Of a stretch of 64,000 nucleotides of DNA, positions 3,012 to 49,170 are shown one piece after another. Made by a program: the position numbers and the translations under genes. The notes under the pieces were generated by a model that was given only the letters and a program-made list of their open reading frames with translations, was not told the DNA's origin and did no database searches. Every line of letters starts with the position of its first letter. Positions within the stretch are counted from its first letter, which is position 1. The DNA comes from Microbacterium imperiale. Lineage in GTDB: Bacteria; Actinomycetota; Actinomycetes; Actinomycetales; Microbacteriaceae. Location: contig NZ_JAGIOK010000001.1 of assembly GCF_017876655.1 (NCBI RefSeq), positions 2,790,001 to 2,854,000 on the forward strand, given 5' to 3'.

Positions 3012-4223
3012 TCAGAGCCAGGACGACGCGGCGCCCGCGCCCGCCCCGAGCAGGACGACCGCCCAGGCCGGGCAGCGCCAGAGCGCGAGCAGCCCGAAGC
3101 AGACGAGAGCGAGCGCGAACTGGTCGACCCGGGTGACCGAGGTCGTGAAGACGGGGTCGTAGAGGGCGGCTCCGAGGATGCCGACCACGGCGGCGCTCGC
3201 GCCCCGCACCGCTCCTGTCGCGCGCGGCCGGCGGCGGATCGCGGCCCAGAGGGGCAGGGCGCCGAGCAGGAGCAGGAACCCGGGCAGAAAGATGCCCGCG
3301 AGCGCGATGGCCGCCCCCGCGACGCCCCCGGGCCCGACCTCGGAGAGAGCGCCCAGGTACGCGGCGAACGCGAACAGCGGTCCCGGCAGCGCCTGCGCGG
3401 CGCCGTACCCGGCCAGGAAGGTCTCGGCGTCGACCCACCCTGGCCCGACGACGGAACTGTCCAGAAGCGGCAGCACCACGTGACCCCCGCCGAAGACGAG
3501 AGCGCCCGAGCGGAGGAAGGCATCGAAGAGCGCAAGCGCCTCGCTGCCCGTGGTCGCCGCCACGATCGGGCTCGCGACGAGCAGAAGCGCGAGCACGACG
3601 AGCGCGCCGACCCCGACCCGCGTCCCGGCCGTCGGCAGAGCATCGGGCAGCGCCGTCGCGGATGCCGAGGTCGGAGCGTCCTCGCTCTGGTCGGCGTCGC
3701 GCAGCCAGATCGCTCCGGCGATCGCCGCGAGCGCGATGGCGAGGAGCTGCGCGTACGGTCCGCCCACCAGCAGGACGGCCACGGCCGCGGCGATCGCGAT
3801 CGAGCCCCGGGATCGGTCGGGTGCGAGGGAGCGCGCCATGCCCCAGACGGCGTGGGCGACCACGGCGACGGCGACGACCTTGAGTCCGTCGATGACGCCG
3901 CCAGCGAGCGGGCCCGACACGGCGTCGACGCTGGCCGCAGCCCAGACCATCAGGGCGGCCGAGGGAAGGGTGAACGCGGCGAAGGCCGCGAGCGCCCCGG
4001 CCAGGCCGGCGCGGCGCATTCCGATCGCGAAGCCGACCTGACTGGAGGCGGGACCGGGCAGGAACTGGCACAGCGCCACGAGCTCGCCGTATGCGCGGTC
4101 GCTCAGCCAGCGCCGACGGGTGACGAACTCGTCGCGGAAGTACCCGAGGTGTGCGATCGGGCCGCCGAACGAGGTCAGTCCCAGACGCAGGAACACCCCG
4201 GCGACGGCGGCGAGGTTCGGCAC
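3012..4223 (-). CDS. chrA: Chromate transporter ChrA
   Basis: A two-domain CHR family membrane transporter, which exports chromate by proton-coupled exchange or symport in characterised members. The N-terminal half shows the conserved block FLRLGLTSFGGPIAHLGYFR near residue 10-30 and CQFLPGPASSQVGFAIG near 60, and the second half repeats the fold (GGGHVVLPLL, YGAAQALPGPLFAFAAYLG). About 403 residues, the usual length of long-chain ChrA. I take the GTG at 4223 because family homology starts there; an in-frame GTG at 4280 would add 19 residues unlike the family and would place coding sequence over a pair of PHO-box repeats (4241-4262). Neither start has a clear ribosome binding site. It is convergent with the MFS gene and divergent from the phosphoesterase gene. 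Confidence 0.87.
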   Translation of the reverse strand: MPNLAAVAGVFLRLGLTSFGGPIAHLGYFRDEFVTRRRWLSDRAYGELVALCQFLPGPASSQVGFAIGMRRAGLAGALAAFAAFTLPSAALMVWAAASVDAVSGPLAGGVIDGLKVVAVAVVAHAVWGMARSLAPDRSRGSIAIAAAVAVLLVGGPYAQLLAIALAAIAGAIWLRDADQSEDAPTSASATALPDALPTAGTRVGVGALVVLALLLVASPIVAATTGSEALALFDAFLRSGALVFGGGHVVLPLLDSSVVGPGWVDAETFLAGYGAAQALPGPLFAFAAYLGALSEVGPGGVAGAAIALAGIFLPGFLLLLGALPLWAAIRRRPRATGAVRGASAAVVGILGAALYDPVFTTSVTRVDQFALALVCFGLLALWRCPAWAVVLLGAGAGAASSWL

Positions 4224-4240
4224 GATGTCAGCGCACCACC

Positions 4241-4262
4241 CGCGGGTGAACACGGGGTGAAC
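4241..4262 (-). promoter_or_regulatory. PHO-box direct repeat pair facing chrA
   Basis: On the minus strand two perfect 11-nt units follow each other: GTTCACCCCGT (4262-4252) and GTTCACCCGCG (4251-4241). This matches the actinobacterial PhoP direct repeat unit (consensus GTTCACC plus four bases, 11-nt period). It lies 18 bases upstream of the chrA start used here and about 137 bases upstream of the phosphoesterase start. Confidence 0.65.
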
Positions 4263-4297
4263 GCCGCGCGCGAATAGCACACCGAGGTGACCGACCG

Positions 4298-4363
4298 CGT
4301 CACCGGCCGGTCACCCGGACGCGCCCCCGCGTTCACCCTCCGCTGGTGCGCCGTGCCTAGCCT
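4298..4363 (+). promoter_or_regulatory. PHO-box array and promoter of the phosphoesterase gene
   Basis: Four 11-nt units in exact phase on the plus strand: CGTCACCGGCC (4298), GGTCACCCGGA (4309), a degenerate CGCGCCCCCGC (4320) and GTTCACCCTCC (4331). The last unit ends where a -35 element would sit, followed by a TAGCCT -10 at 4358-4363. In Streptomyces, PhoP binds such arrays overlapping -35 to activate phosphate-starvation genes. The downstream product is a secreted phosphoesterase, which fits. Confidence 0.68.
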
Positions 4364-4398
4364 CAGCGGCATCCCTCCCTGCACCGAAGGTGGTCGTC

Positions 4399-7300
4399 AT
4401 GCCCGCTGAGCGCCCGCGCGCCCGTTTTCTCACCGTCGTGTTGACGGCGACCTTGGCGACGGGAGTCGGTGCGGCCTTCGCTGCGCCCGCGCTCGCGGCA
4501 CCGGCATTCGCCGCGCCTTCGGCCGCCGACCGCGCGCTCGCGTCGCTCGTCGTGACCGAGATCGCGCCCGACAACGTCGGCGCCGACGACTACGAGTACT
4601 TCGAGGTGCACAACCCGACCGGCAGCGACATCGATCTCGCCGCCGACGGGTACTCGTTCGCGTACACCTACGTCGACAGCGCCGACCGCGAGCGCGATGT
4701 GGCTCTCACGGTCGCTGAGGCGACGGTCGTCCCCGCCGACGGCACCGTGGTGTTCTGGCTGAGCTACGCGACCGGCAGCGTCGACTCGTTCGCCCGCTCC
4801 GTCGACGACTTCCGCGCGCACTGGGGCGCGGCTGCCGACACGACGGTCGTCCGAGTGACGGGGCAGCCGGGCATGGCCAACAGTGCCCCGCGCGGCATCC
4901 GCGTCCTGCAGAACGACGCGATCGTCGGCTGGTCCACGTACGGCCGGACGGCGGCCGCCGCGGGACAGTCGGCGCACTTCGGCCTGCCCGCCGAGCGCAC
5001 CGACGGCGGCATGGACCTCCTCGCCGAGCCGGCGCCGGCGAGCCCGGGGGTCGTCGCGCCCGAGGCCGTCACCCCGCCCGCGGGCCAGCCCGGCGAGCCC
5101 GGCTTCGACCCGCAGCCCGATCCGGCTGTCGTGACGGCGCCGCTGCAGATCACCGAGCTGCTTCCCGACTCGGCGAACGTCTCGGGCTCGGACGGCTTCG
5201 AGTTCATCGAGATCTACAACGCCAGCAGCAGCCCGATCGACTTCTCGAACTACACGATCGACTACCTCTACCCCGTCGAGGGCACGTCCAGCACGTGGCC
5301 GGCGGCTCCGAGCGGCGTCGTGATCCCGGGCGGTGACACGCTCGTGTTCTGGATCAAGAACGGCGCCAACGACACGCTGACGGCAGCCGACTTCAACGCT
5401 CACTTCGCGACGAACCTCGTGCTGGGCGACGACCTCGTCGAGATCTCCTTTGCCGGCATGGCCAACGGCTCGCCGCGCGGCGTCGCGATCGAGACCAACA
5501 CCGGGCGGCACGTCAGCACCGCGATGTACAACCTCGACGGCGCGGACGACACGGTCGCCGATCAGGGCATCCGGTACACCGTCGGCGCCGACCTCGCCAC
5601 GCAGCGGATCGTCGATCTGGCGCCGGCGACGCCGGGCGCCGTGCAGGCCGATCAGGTGCCCGCCGGTCTCATGATCGTCGCGCCCGACACGCAGGCGCCG
5701 ACCATCGTCGATCGCACCGCCGGCGAGATCCAGCCCGGCGCCGACTTCACCATCACCGCGACGGTGACCGACGATGTGCTCGCGCGCACGGTCAGCCTGA
5801 CCCTGGCGAACGACGTCGACACCGTCAACTCGCCGGTGCGCGCCAACCTGCTCGACGCCGGCGACGGGACCGTGTCGTTCGTCGTGAACGCCGCCGACCT
5901 CATCGGCAAGAGCTGGTACGAGTACATCATCACCGCCAGCGACGGTACGAACCGCGTGTCGACCGAGCCTCGGCGCGTGCCGGTGGCCGGGGTCAACACC
6001 GACTCGGTGCGCCTGAACCTCGAGGACGGTCAGTTCGTCTCGGGCACGACGGGCGTCGTGGCCGCCGGCGACGCGTACCCGAGCCCGATCGACCTGACGA
6101 TCGACGGAGCGGCGATCGACACCGAGCCCGCACTCGAAGACGAGCCGCGGTTCGTGTTCGAGACGACCAACGTCAACTACTACTTCAAGAACGGCGTGCG
6201 CATCGGCGACGACGTCCTCAACATCTTCGAGATCGGCACGGAGGGGTGGGAGACGATCATCACCCCGATCCCGCTCGACTACGTCGTCCAGGGCGACGAG
6301 CTCGTCGTGAGTGTCTGGGCGGGCACGAAGAAGGCCCCCGAGATCGATCCCGACGAGAATAACGACGACTTCGAGATCCGCGGCCTGCGTCTCGTGCTGC
6401 CCGACGGGCGCACGCTCACCCCGACCGGCTACGACGATCCCGCCGCCGTCCTGCGCATGGGTGACAGCGTCAACGCCACCGGTGCGCCCTCGGGCAAGCT
6501 CGACTACTACGAGGCTCGGTTCCCGCTCCCCGACGACGCCTTCTCGGCGATCGCCGCCCAGTGGGACACGACCGAGCGCCCGGACGGCTCCGCGGTGGTC
6601 ACCGCCACCGACGGTGTCGCCGAGGTCTCGCGGACCGTCGTCGTCGACAACACCGCTCCCGTCGTGGCGTCGCAGATCATCGACGGCACCGCCTACCAGG
6701 GGCCGATCGTCATCGACGCCGAGGTCGTCGATGGCGGCTCCGGGGTCGCCGGCGTCGTGGCCCGCCTCGACGGTGCGGAGATCGCCCTGCCGCACGAGAC
6801 GTCGTCGGTCGACCTGGCGGCGGGGGAGCACAGCGTCGAGATCACCGCGACCGACCATGTCGGCAACGCCGAGACCTGGACGGCGACGTTCACCACGTAC
6901 GTCGAGCAGCCCAGCGCCGGCGCCCTCGCCCCCGCCGAGGGCGCGGAGGTTCCGGCCGGTGACGTGACGCTGCAGGCGAAGGTCGAAGACCCGACCCGCG
7001 ACGTGCTCGACGTGGCCTTCCTCGAGGGCCGCCGCCTTGACCTGTCGGACGGCGACGTCTCCGTGCAGTCCGGCACGACGCAGGACGCTCGCGCGGTCGA
7101 CCGTGCACCGGCCGAACCGCTGACCACCGACCAGCTGCGCACGCTGGCCGCGGTCGACGGCGTCGCCGAGCAGATCTCCAGCGACCGGGCCTTCCCCTAC
7201 CAGCTCTTCGACGTCGCGGTCACCGATGCCGACGCGGGCGCGGACGTGCGCTCGACGTGGTCGGGCCGCGCGAACACGGGGGCGACGGTCGTCCTCTACG

Positions 7301-8934
7301 CCCAGCGTGCCGACGGGTCGGGCTGGGACGAGGTCGACCGGCACGTGGCGGCATCCGACGACGAGGCGTTCTCACTCGACGCCGTCGTCGCGGTCGACGA
7401 TTACGCGTTCGCCGCGCCGGACGGCGAGGGGCGGGTCGTGCGGATGCTCGTGCAGCACTCCGAGGGCTTCGCCGGCGCCGACCTCAGCGACCGCACGACC
7501 CCGGTGGCGCCGCACAACGCCGCCGACGTGCCCCGCACCGACTACGACTTCACGTTCGCCTGGGAGTCCGATACGCAGTACTACAACGAGAACACGATGC
7601 CCGGCGAGCCGTACCGCCACCAGCAGGCGATCCACTCGTACCTGCTCGATCGGCGCGACGAGCTGAACCTGCAGTACCTCTTCCACACGGGCGACATCGT
7701 CGACGACTTCGACGTCATGGAGCAGTGGGAGCGGGCGGACCCGGAGTACCGGCGCCTCGATGTGGCCGGTCTTCCCTACGGCGTGCTCGCGGGCAACCAC
7801 GACGTGGGTCACCACCTCGAGGACTACACGAACTACGGCGCGTACTTCGGCGAGGAGCGTTATGCCGGCAACCCCTGGTACGGCGGCAGCTTCGAGGACA
7901 ACCGCGGCCACTACGACCTCATCTCGGCGGGCGGCATCGACTTCGTGATGCTCTACACCGGCTGGCTGCCCGGAGACGCGTCGATCGCCTGGATGAACGA
8001 GGTGCTCGCGCAGTACCCCGACCGCGTCGCGATCATCGCGCAGCACGAGTTCATCCTCACCACCGGCGGGCTCGGTGCGATCCCGCAGCGGGTCATGGAC
8101 GAGGTCGTCGCGGTCAACCCGAACGTCCGCATGGTGCTGTCGGGGCACTACCACGATGCCTTCCTGCGCGAGGACGGCTTCGACGACGACGGTGACGGCG
8201 TGGACGACCGGACGGTCTTCTCGATGCTGTTCGACTACCAGGGTCTGCCGGAGGGCGGCCTCGGGTTCCTGCGCCTCCTGCACTTCGACAACGAGGGCCG
8301 GCAGATGCTCGTGCGCACCTACTCGCCGTCGCTCGACGTCTACAACTCGGACGAGGCGAGCCTGCTCGGTCCGGGCGGCCCCGGCGACTACTCCCCGCAG
8401 GAGTTCTCGCTCACGTACGACCAGCTCCGCATCGACCCCGGCACCCGCAGCCTCGGCACCGACGCGTTCTCCGCCGAGATCCTCGGCGGCACCGAGATCG
8501 CCTCGTTCACCGACGTGGCGAGCGGCTCGATCCTGTCGGCCTCGTGGCCGCTGGCCGAGACGGGCGAGCGCGGCTGGTACGTGCGCACGAGCGACCCCTA
8601 CGGAGCCGTCGACTTCTCGCGCGTCTCGCTGTTCACGGTGGTGCCGGCAGTCGAGCCCGAGGTGCCGGGTGGATCCGACGGCGGTTCGGGCACGCCGGCG
8701 CCGCAGCCGGGTGGCGGCGGCGCCCCGGGCGCCGGGGGACCGGCGGCCGGACGACCGGATGCCGGAGCCGTCGGCGCCCCGGCCGGCGCGGCGCGTCCCG
8801 AAGGGCTCGCGGCCACCGGAGGAACGTCGGGCCTCACCGGTCTCGGTGCGCTCGCGGCGGCGGCGCTGATCCTCGCCGGCGGCGCGCTGACGGTCGCGCG
8901 TGGCCGGCGTCGCCGGGGGAGCACCACCGGCTGA
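4399..8934 (+). CDS. Secreted LAxTG-anchored lamin-tail metallophosphoesterase
   Basis: A 1511-residue exported protein. Order of parts: signal peptide (about 1-35, ending in Ala-rich APALAAPAFA); two lamin-tail-like beta domains (about 49-214 and 247-420); Ig-like and other beta domains up to about 1040; a calcineurin-like metallophosphoesterase at about 1050-1340 with DTQ near 1057, HTGDIVDDF near 1096, AGNHD near 1131, QHEF near 1214 and SGHYHD near 1248 (metal and catalytic residues); a Gly/Pro-rich stalk; LAATG near 1470, a membrane segment and an RRRR tail, that is a class E type sortase sorting signal. ATG at 4399 follows GAAGG at 4386-4390; a GTG nine bases earlier is less likely. It probably releases phosphate from nucleotides, nucleic acids or phosphodiesters at the cell surface under phosphate limitation. 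The exact substrate is unknown. Confidence 0.88.
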   Translation: MPAERPRARFLTVVLTATLATGVGAAFAAPALAAPAFAAPSAADRALASLVVTEIAPDNVGADDYEYFEVHNPTGSDIDLAADGYSFAYTYVDSADRERDVALTVAEATVVPADGTVVFWLSYATGSVDSFARSVDDFRAHWGAAADTTVVRVTGQPGMANSAPRGIRVLQNDAIVGWSTYGRTAAAAGQSAHFGLPAERTDGGMDLLAEPAPASPGVVAPEAVTPPAGQPGEPGFDPQPDPAVVTAPLQITELLPDSANVSGSDGFEFIEIYNASSSPIDFSNYTIDYLYPVEGTSSTWPAAPSGVVIPGGDTLVFWIKNGANDTLTAADFNAHFATNLVLGDDLVEISFAGMANGSPRGVAIETNTGRHVSTAMYNLDGADDTVADQGIRYTVGADLATQRIVDLAPATPGAVQADQVPAGLMIVAPDTQAPTIVDRTAGEIQPGADFTITATVTDDVLARTVSLTLANDVDTVNSPVRANLLDAGDGTVSFVVNAADLIGKSWYEYIITASDGTNRVSTEPRRVPVAGVNTDSVRLNLEDGQFVSGTTGVVAAGDAYPSPIDLTIDGAAIDTEPALEDEPRFVFETTNVNYYFKNGVRIGDDVLNIFEIGTEGWETIITPIPLDYVVQGDELVVSVWAGTKKAPEIDPDENNDDFEIRGLRLVLPDGRTLTPTGYDDPAAVLRMGDSVNATGAPSGKLDYYEARFPLPDDAFSAIAAQWDTTERPDGSAVVTATDGVAEVSRTVVVDNTAPVVASQIIDGTAYQGPIVIDAEVVDGGSGVAGVVARLDGAEIALPHETSSVDLAAGEHSVEITATDHVGNAETWTATFTTYVEQPSAGALAPAEGAEVPAGDVTLQAKVEDPTRDVLDVAFLEGRRLDLSDGDVSVQSGTTQDARAVDRAPAEPLTTDQLRTLAAVDGVAEQISSDRAFPYQLFDVAVTDADAGADVRSTWSGRANTGATVVLYAQRADGSGWDEVDRHVAASDDEAFSLDAVVAVDDYAFAAPDGEGRVVRMLVQHSEGFAGADLSDRTTPVAPHNAADVPRTDYDFTFAWESDTQYYNENTMPGEPYRHQQAIHSYLLDRRDELNLQYLFHTGDIVDDFDVMEQWERADPEYRRLDVAGLPYGVLAGNHDVGHHLEDYTNYGAYFGEERYAGNPWYGGSFEDNRGHYDLISAGGIDFVMLYTGWLPGDASIAWMNEVLAQYPDRVAIIAQHEFILTTGGLGAIPQRVMDEVVAVNPNVRMVLSGHYHDAFLREDGFDDDGDGVDDRTVFSMLFDYQGLPEGGLGFLRLLHFDNEGRQMLVRTYSPSLDVYNSDEASLLGPGGPGDYSPQEFSLTYDQLRIDPGTRSLGTDAFSAEILGGTEIASFTDVASGSILSASWPLAETGERGWYVRTSDPYGAVDFSRVSLFTVVPAVEPEVPGGSDGGSGTPAPQPGGGGAPGAGGPAAGRPDAGAVGAPAGAARPEGLAATGGTSGLTGLGALAAAALILAGGALTVARGRRRRGSTTG

Positions 8935-8953: not shown

Positions 8954-9883
8954 TCACGCGGTCGAGCCGTCGTCGGAGCCCACCACCTGATGCCAGTCCG
9001 GCAGCGGGTCGGGCAGGGTCCGCCACCGGGCGGGCCCTGCCGCCAGCTCGCCGTCGTCGAGCACGGCCTCGTCGAGCACCTGACGGAGGCGGCCGGGGTT
9101 GAGATCGATGCCTGTCATCGCGAGATCCTGTCCGACGTCGTCGAGGCCGTGCCCCGCATCCAGCGGATCGATCCACATCGCCGACCCGGCCTGCTCCCAG
9201 CGGGCCGGTGTTCCCGCCCGTGTCGCGAGCCGGCAGACGCCCACCGAGCGAAGCAGGATGCCGCAGGCGCCGGAGTCGAGGATCTCGAGCGCCCGAACGA
9301 GCCGAGCGGGGTGGAAGGGCCGCAGCTGCTCGTACCGCAGCGTCGTGACGCGGCGGTCGGTGAGGAACGGCTCGTGCTCGCCGTTGAGTACACGCGTCCA
9401 CCCCGCGCGATCGTCGCGGGGCCCCACGGGGAGGGTCGTTCCGAAGCCCAGCGCCGCCAGGTCGTCGCGGACGCCGCGGCTTAGTCGCACGCGCGCGGTC
9501 GGCGCCAGGTGCGACGCGACGGCCATGAGGATCGACAGGTCGGCGGTGGGCAGGCGCTCCCAGTTGACGATGACGACGGCGCTCGCGCCCTCGATGAGCT
9601 GAGCCGCCAGCCGAGCGCGAGCGCCGACGTCGGCGCGGGCGTCGCCGTCGGGCACGGTGCGGCGCACGGGTGCGTCGTCGCGGAGGTCGTCGAGAGCGTG
9701 GCGGGCATCGACGACGCAGAGGGTGTCCATGCCGTGCAGGGTCGAATGGACCAGGAGGGGATCGGCGGCGCTCGGCAGATCGATGACGTGCAGTGAGCGG
9801 TGGCGTCCGGCTGCGGCGCCCAGCCGCGCGTAGCGACGGCGTTCGGCGCTGCAGACTCCGGTGATGGCGAGATGTGTGGTCAC
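8954..9883 (-). CDS. Degenerate COG0523 (CobW-like) protein
   Basis: A 309-residue protein matching the middle and C-terminal part of COG0523 metal-handling GTPases: a VDA strand (TLCVVDARHALDDL), a region equivalent to 'QIEFADVVLLNKTDL' that here reads QLIEGASAVVIVNWERL, and a CobW C-terminal domain with RPFHPARLVRALEIL and LRSVGVCRLATR. The Walker A P-loop (GxxGxGKTT) and the CxCC metal motif are absent, and the guanine-binding NKxD has become NWER, so GTP hydrolysis is probably lost. GTG at 9883 has GGAAAG about 6 bases upstream. Divergent from a zinc-free L36 gene across a Zur-type box, so a role in zinc starvation is likely. It could be a metal-binding scaffold rather than an enzyme. Confidence 0.75.
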   Translation of the reverse strand: MTTHLAITGVCSAERRRYARLGAAAGRHRSLHVIDLPSAADPLLVHSTLHGMDTLCVVDARHALDDLRDDAPVRRTVPDGDARADVGARARLAAQLIEGASAVVIVNWERLPTADLSILMAVASHLAPTARVRLSRGVRDDLAALGFGTTLPVGPRDDRAGWTRVLNGEHEPFLTDRRVTTLRYEQLRPFHPARLVRALEILDSGACGILLRSVGVCRLATRAGTPARWEQAGSAMWIDPLDAGHGLDDVGQDLAMTGIDLNPGRLRQVLDEAVLDDGELAAGPARWRTLPDPLPDWHQVVGSDDGSTA

Positions 9884-9931
9884 GGCGTGCTTTCCGACTT
9901 GTGATGCTTCGATGCCCACCGTACCTTGTTG

Positions 9932-9948
9932 TTGATAAGTATTCTCAA
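9932..9948. promoter_or_regulatory. Zur box between the COG0523-like gene and rpmJ
   Basis: TTGATAAGTATTCTCAA is an imperfect AT-rich palindrome in a very GC-rich setting. Its 15-bp core (9933-9947) matches the actinobacterial Zur consensus TGAAAATGATTTTCA at 11 of 15 positions. It lies just upstream of the AGGAGG of rpmJ, where zinc-bound Zur would block transcription. Confidence 0.65.
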
Positions 9949-9960
9949 TAGGAGGTCGGC

Positions 9961-10083
9961 ATGAAGGTTCGCGCATCGATCAAGTCGTTGAAGGAGCAGC
10001 CGGGCGCGCAGGTCGTGCGTCGTCGCGGCCGCGTGTACGTGATCAACAAGCTCAACCCGCGGTTCAAGGGTCGGCAGGGATGA
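9961..10083 (+). CDS. rpmJ: Zinc-independent 50S ribosomal protein L36 (C- paralogue)
   Basis: A 40-residue basic protein starting [21 protein letters not shown] and ending in the conserved [13 protein letters not shown]. It has no cysteine at all, so it is the C- form of L36 that replaces the zinc-ribbon C+ form and frees ribosomal zinc under starvation. ATG at 9961 follows a strong AGGAGG (9950-9955). The Zur-type box directly upstream and the divergent COG0523-like gene support zinc regulation. The gene is short but the family match is clear. Confidence 0.93.
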
Positions 10084-49148: not shown

Positions 49149-49170
49149 GGACCCTGAACAGACGGTGAAC
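49149..49170 (-). promoter_or_regulatory. PHO-box-like repeat upstream of the PiT gene
   Basis: On the minus strand GTTCACCGTCT (49170-49160) is followed in phase by GTTCAGGGTCC (49159-49149). The first unit has a perfect PhoP heptamer, the second only GTTCA. It lies about 90 bases before a phosphate transporter gene, which fits PhoP control, though with weaker evidence than the array at 4298. Confidence 0.45.

Follow-up and report, generated by a model that had tools for sequence, protein, structure and literature searches.

The stretch of Microbacterium imperiale DNA analysed here, positions 2790001-2854000 of contig 1 (64,000 nucleotides, hereafter the window), carries two genes that diverge from a gap of 175 bp: chrA on the minus strand (3012..4223), encoding a long-chain CHR transporter, and a phosphoesterase gene on the plus strand (4399..8934). 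The predicted phosphoesterase combines lamin-tail matches (PF00932, 67.2 bits in two stretches, cut-off 34.3) with a calcineurin-like domain (PF00149, 36.9 bits, cut-off 21.5). Its start, ATG 4399 after GAAGGTGG (4386-4393), and its leader were read by eye only, as was the LAATG-type C-terminal tail of the translation, LAxTG being a sortase signal. Identity to M. thalli amounts to 92% over the phosphoesterase, and the phosphoesterase domain has no PDB relative by sequence at E up to 0.01. The chrA product scores above the cut-offs of TIGR00937 (317.8 bits, cut-off 171.7) and PF02417 (236.4 bits, cut-off 28.6), as do ChrA/CHR chromate-efflux transporters, and belongs to the CHR superfamily; for the short ChrA/ChrB equivalogs of NCBIfam, NF053760 and NF053759, it reaches 57.8 and 84.9 bits, below the cut-off of 250 bits, and a sequence search of the PDB at E up to 1 finds no relative for it. 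Unlike the known chromate-efflux transporters, this putative transporter, assigned by sequence, has a PHO-type promoter, and neither of the two genes that flank it is a regulator. As the start of chrA we take GTG 4223-4221, a leaderless start predicted from comparative geometry; GTG 4280, given in a mechanical list of open reading frames, was set aside for it, since in relatives the start codon is found at the corresponding position, 39 nt downstream of where the box described below begins. Beyond the phosphoesterase gene, at 8954-9976 on the minus strand, lies the gene of a 340-aa protein with a CobW C-terminal domain, which directly precedes chrA at two other Microbacterium loci (L112 and L113).

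On the minus strand of the gap, direct reading yields GTTCACCCCGT at 4262-4252 followed by GTTCACCCGCG at 4251-4241, two perfect units that make up GTTCACC-N4-GTTCACC (4262-4245) and start 39 and 28 nt upstream of the start predicted for chrA. The predicted -10 of chrA, TGCGCT (4230..4235, minus strand), is weak and was placed by the spacing common to relatives and to both pstS promoters of this genome, at a distance of 16 nt from where the second unit begins. On the plus strand, CGTCACCGGCC, GGTCACCCGGA, CGCGCCCCCGC and GTTCACCCTCC follow one another in 11-bp phase at 4298, 4309, 4320 and 4331, with the cores CGTCACC, GGTCACC and GTTCACC at 4298, 4309 and 4331, respectively. Downstream of them stands TAGCCT (4358..4363), a -10 hexamer picked by eye 27 nt from the start of the last unit, with transcription of the phosphoesterase gene predicted to start at about 4370. 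The first-pass annotation had counted six units in 11-bp phase, two on the minus and four on the plus strand. In an alignment of 12 Microbacterium promoters on a -10 picked by eye (the window and 11 further loci, some of them near-copies; L071 is cut off), the mean matches to GTTCACC are 5.0, 5.0 and 6.2 of 7 at positions -72, -61 and -39, that is, at the distal pair (4298..4319), also seen by direct reading, and at the proximal unit (4331..4341), and 1.6 of 7 at -50, where the 4320 unit falls. As the latter value is background, the unit at 4320, which had been called degenerate, is ruled out as a real PHO unit, and five of the six stand; 4320..4330 is an 11-bp spacer that is not conserved. 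Judged from the aligned promoters, the phosphoesterase array consists of two distal units and a single proximal one, separated by a turn that is left empty.

How does this arrangement compare with known PHO boxes? The PHO box is described as two 11-nt units, with the core GTTCACC in Streptomyces coelicolor (PMC4415409, excerpt), in agreement with the earlier identification of the 11-nt GTTCACC unit as the Streptomyces PhoP site. With the Streptomyces-type PhoP/RegX3 boxes, as the excerpted text presents them, the Microbacterium boxes share the 7-nt core, the 11-nt period and the presence of two or more head-to-tail units, which are conserved here at -72, -61 and -39 on one side of the gap and at -39 and -28 on the other. 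They differ from them in that the position of the Microbacterium chrA pair is constant, 39 nt upstream of the start codon, and in that the phosphoesterase array is divided into a pair, a spacer and a single unit. Among four phosphoesterase homologues of other actinobacteria, two have upstream pairs, in Tessaracoccus (L073, 13/14) and Propionibacterium (L088, 14/14), and at neither of these loci was chrA found in the examined stretch; before the homologues of Leucobacter (L075) and Serinibacter (L077), there is no pair of at least 11/14. Together with the footprint in the 12 Microbacterium promoters and the motif at both pstS genes, the pairs of these two homologues uphold the assignment of PHO boxes to the phosphoesterase. 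Bacillus-type PhoP boxes (TT[ACT]A[CT]A, three units) were sought at 20 loci, 19 of Firmicutes and one of Microbacterium (L086), with five further Firmicute loci omitted; they are not evident before the Firmicute homologues, where match starts may differ from the true gene starts, and 2 of the 20 loci (L090, L092) exceed all 40 resampled sequences.

The genome of M. imperiale itself provides a reference for the motif. A scan of its 3.17 Mb with the pair pattern GTTCACCNNNNGTTCACC, using the reversed pattern as control, returns only two perfect copies, the pair at 4262-4245 and one before a second pstS-like gene, and only one copy with a single mismatch, before pstS; at up to two mismatches, there are 31 sites versus 3 for the control. 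The first pstS lies above the TIGR02136 cut-off and is followed by a permease gene; the second pstS-like gene lies below this cut-off (71.2 bits, E 8.2e-20), but has genes for an ABC permease and an ATPase downstream of it. By eye, a hexamer resembling a -10 starts 16 nt downstream of where the second unit begins, in both pstS promoters. The motif is hence found before pst genes of its own genome, which also holds the PhoU-PhoR-PhoP set as adjacent genes for PhoU (above its NCBIfam cut-off), a PhoR-type kinase and a RegX3-type response regulator. Kinase and regulator fall below every NCBIfam cut-off listed, with regulator scores of 252.1 for YycF, 245.5 for MtrA and 225.7 for PhoB; the best PDB match of the regulator is RegX3 (2oqr, E 2.7e-99).

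The chrA gene is present in 95 of 366 Microbacterium genomes, and our comparison covers 102 chrA loci, a set that takes in the window itself, near-copies and one gene represented by two pieces (L058, L063) and leaves out six loci of other families (L054-L056, L059-L061), L172, which has no N-terminal match, and chrA fragments (G341, G332 C33, G327 C69, and G106 C7 and C16). A PHO-type pair of at least 10/14 stands exactly 39 nt before an in-frame start codon in 51 of the 102 loci, a count that, like the other chrA counts, refers to chosen genomes, related sequences and near-copies and not to independent events. At 33 other offsets from 28 to 61 nt, such a pair occurs in 0-3 loci at 31 offsets, in 8 loci at offset 50, which is a shift by one unit, and in 12 at offset 57. 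Within the 150 bp that precede the first aligned codon, the top-scoring pair reaches at least 11/14 in 52/102 loci, a level attained by 0.49% of dinucleotide-resampled sequences and by 3/561 segments further upstream. At the 39-nt place, 49 of the 102 loci score below 9, and two loci counted as lacking the box (L051, L173) have box-like pairs one nt off this place. A common form of the element, RTTCACC-N4-GTTTCCC, an nAGGAT-like -10 whose first base lies 16 nt past that of the second unit, 6 nt and ATG or GTG, is a predicted leaderless promoter of the same build as that in the window, and its -10 spacing is the same as in both pstS promoters.

On the chrA tree, the box (here labelled at 9/14 or more) is present in 38/38 rows of a supported clade and in 13/16 rows of a second group, while 46 of the other 48 rows are without it, the remaining two scoring 13 (L139) and 9 (L154). 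The label changes 4 times on the tree, versus 33.5 times when shuffled; as the two groups with the box are united by a weak branch, a single origin of the chrA box is unsupported. L139 (G343) lies in the box-poor part of the tree with a 13/14 pair at the 39-nt place, and its box is perhaps an independent gain.

A narrower pattern, RTTCACCNNNNGTTYNCC (RTTCACCN4GTTYNCC), was scanned through eight genomes picked for a boxed chrA. Its 15 matches comprise eight at pstS (one per genome), six at chrA and one other, with none for the reversed control, and in the two remaining genomes, G009 and G127, the final base keeps the chrA box from matching; as the genomes were picked for this box, the chrA matches are not independent evidence, the pstS matches are. 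In eight genomes picked for an unboxed chrA copy, 12 matches were obtained, seven at pstS, none at chrA and five elsewhere (one at an arsenate-reductase-like gene, two at a non-specific endonuclease gene and two without assigned gene), again with none for the control. Seven of these eight genomes have the pstS box, and G230 has none; thus, the pstS box mostly stays where the chrA box is missing. The proposal of the first-pass annotation that chrA is under phosphate control thereby gains support from sequence comparison well beyond the locus, and the comparison with control sequence that it had called for speaks against chance repeats both in the genome, where the reversed pattern served, and at the chrA loci, where resampled sequence did.

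Could the minus-strand pair be only an extra operator of the phosphoesterase promoter, with chrA not controlled by phosphate at all? Complex PhoP operators exist in Streptomyces according to the excerpted text (PMC4415409), and by our estimate the predicted start of phosphoesterase transcription lies some 110-130 bp downstream of the pair. At six named Microbacterium loci where chrA stands opposite the phosphoesterase gene, the minus pair is kept in 6/6 at 13 or 14 of 14. However, five Microbacterium loci with the phosphoesterase and without chrA in the examined stretch have no minus-strand pair of at least 12/14, two of them (L072, L074) showing an 11/14 pair at another place, and only 7 of the 51 boxed chrA loci have the phosphoesterase in the examined stretch, as against 44 that are boxed without it. 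The latter include L112 and L113, where the phosphoesterase is absent from an otherwise conserved gene order, chrA follows directly on the CobW_C gene, located past the phosphoesterase in the window, and pairs of 13/14 and 14/14 are found 39 nt before the chrA start. Since the pair is kept at these two loci and not seen at 12/14 or better at the five Microbacterium loci without chrA, it goes with chrA and not with the enzyme, and the direct contact between the CobW_C gene and chrA indicates that the phosphoesterase gene was gained or lost as one unit. The pair in the window also has the 39-nt spacing of the other chrA boxes, and we hold a role confined to the phosphoesterase promoter to be highly improbable.

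The other alternatives concern the protein that reads the box, its effect, and the reality of the repeats. Most second units in the largest chrA clade read GTTTCCC. This departure from the pstS boxes is conserved and could mean weaker binding of PhoP or another regulator; it is the feature that would be accounted for if an OmpR/PhoB-family protein with a similar direct repeat bound the chrA box. In the window, however, both units are GTTCACC and the spacing to the -10 equals that of pstS, and 14/15 matches to the shared pattern in the eight genomes with boxed chrA fall on pstS or chrA; such a regulator seems quite unlikely. Repression by PhoP, which would shut off the transporter at low phosphate, draws on a hexamer upstream of the pair, TATTCG at 4276-4271, that looks better than the poor chrA -10 of the window, TGCGCT; its use would put the pair just downstream of a chrA start site. 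A GCTANTC form of this element is found in 6/7 boxed chrA loci with the phosphoesterase, but in 0/44 without it, and it is therefore no general part of the chrA promoter; as the box also has the geometry of the pstS promoters, for which activation is presumed, we consider repression very unlikely. Chance repeats, for which it may be said in general that GGTCACC-like words are common at a G+C-rich composition, are ruled out by the genome-wide counts (31 versus 3 sites at up to two mismatches, and two perfect ones) and by the conservation and fixed spacing of the pair, and we assign them practically no weight.

We therefore favor, with a probability of roughly 0.8, a divergent Pho-regulon control region from which PhoP would activate both a leaderless chrA and the phosphoesterase gene at low phosphate, with ChrA exporting oxyanions. 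The parts of this reading differ in strength: judged from the promoter comparison, chrA is very probably a Pho-regulon gene and its regulation by PhoP very likely; activation, the direction that we infer, is likely, and chrA is perhaps read leaderlessly from GTG 4223. At low phosphate, the PhoR-type kinase would phosphorylate the RegX3-type PhoP, which would then bind the 11-bp GTTCACC units in head-to-tail order. At chrA, the pair at -39/-28 would straddle the -35 region and activate a leaderless message from GTG 4223, and on the phosphoesterase side, the -39 unit and the distal pair at -72/-61 would activate a surface phosphoesterase that may free phosphate outside the cell. ChrA, in turn, might export oxyanions that get in once high-affinity uptake has been derepressed, or help in some other way to keep anions balanced in starvation. 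Leakage of chromate through Pst is not an obvious reason for such export, because chromate is an analogue of sulfate, and arsenate that of phosphate (PMC10119275, excerpt).

A link between chrA and phosphate was not known to the first-pass annotation from the literature. For actinobacteria, no paper on phosphate control of chrA was found among the matches listed from the open-licence literature, but for cyanobacteria such a link is in print. In Prochlorococcus, chrA is reportedly among the phosphate genes listed by Martiny in 2006. Excerpted reports tie cyanobacterial chrA to phosphate limitation in Prochlorococcus and Synechococcus, with enrichment in low-P waters (PMC7522525, PMC3686209, PMC10119275), and the CHR transporter A1320 of Synechococcus PCC 7002 is described as being up on phosphate deprivation, a condition under which the knockout grows at 63.99% of the wild-type rate. 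Common to these reports and our findings is a CHR transporter linked to phosphate shortage, there by expression and knockout, here by a cis element; different are the phylum and the box, as the excerpts describe no PHO box at cyanobacterial chrA. Two papers on chromate in Microbacterium treat chrA as a chromate gene, and phosphate control is unmentioned in the excerpted text (PMC4647564, PMC7350417). Outside Microbacterium, a pair of at least 10/14 stands 38-40 nt before chrA at 4 of 24 sampled loci of other genera of the order (L054, L190, L195, L200; 59/396 genomes matched), and at the level of the phylum, a PHO-type box precedes chrA in 0/29 loci, drawn from 129 matching genomes.

What could this mean for the purpose of CHR transporters, which are usually read as chromate-resistance genes? 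If phosphate starvation switches a large set of the CHR genes in Microbacterium, what these proteins do day to day probably has to do with phosphate, and naming them for chromate resistance would mislead; together with the cyanobacterial reports, this makes for a testable general claim. A tentative form of it, which we find conceivable rather than probable, is that the phosphate-starvation response has repeatedly and convergently recruited CHR transporters as one of its arms, independently in cyanobacteria and in much of the Microbacterium chrA family, either because derepressed uptake lets in look-alike oxyanions that then have to be exported or because CHR moves a phosphate-related anion and not chromate. 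In one further genome, a perfect GTTCACCCGGCGTTCACC stands 48 nt upstream of a gene that encodes an LMWPc domain (L268, G174:C1:1942970-1942987; PF01451), for which the best NCBIfam models are arsenate reductases, all below cut-off, and whose host has chrA copies without a good box. This gene is possibly a second oxyanion gene in the Pho regulon, and its pair fits the look-alike form of the convergent recruitment.

Several other sites deserve mention. The loci L040, L044, L057, L062, L118, L125, L141-L143, L186 and L187 include unboxed chrA copies that follow a PadR-like or an arsenate-reductase-like gene, the PadR-like regulator being seen at L040 (PF03551) and, by eye, at L044, and the arsenate-reductase-like gene before some copies by eye, with no Pfam match for a 60-aa piece. 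PHO-type pairs 50 nt before a DNA/RNA non-specific endonuclease gene (PF01223; 149.0 and 154.4 bits, cut-off 23) were found at L272 (G152) and L274 (G269), and a role of this endonuclease as a phosphate scavenger is plausible. In the window, a 12/14 GTTCACC pair on the minus strand at 49153-49170 lies 112 nt before a 468-aa open reading frame and lacks the promoter spacing of the other sites. Elsewhere in the M. imperiale genome, a 12/14 pair (L024, G000:C1:2701185-2701202) stands 53 nt before the gene of a haloacid-dehalogenase-like hydrolase (PF00702, 31.8 bits, cut-off 26.4), and another 12/14 pair (L027, G000:C1:2865611-2865628) lies 40 nt ahead of the GTG of a gene for a protein with a VTT/DedA domain (PF09335, 65.7 bits); the latter pair, whose second unit begins 16 nt before TAGGCA, marks a further candidate for the Pho regulon in this genome.
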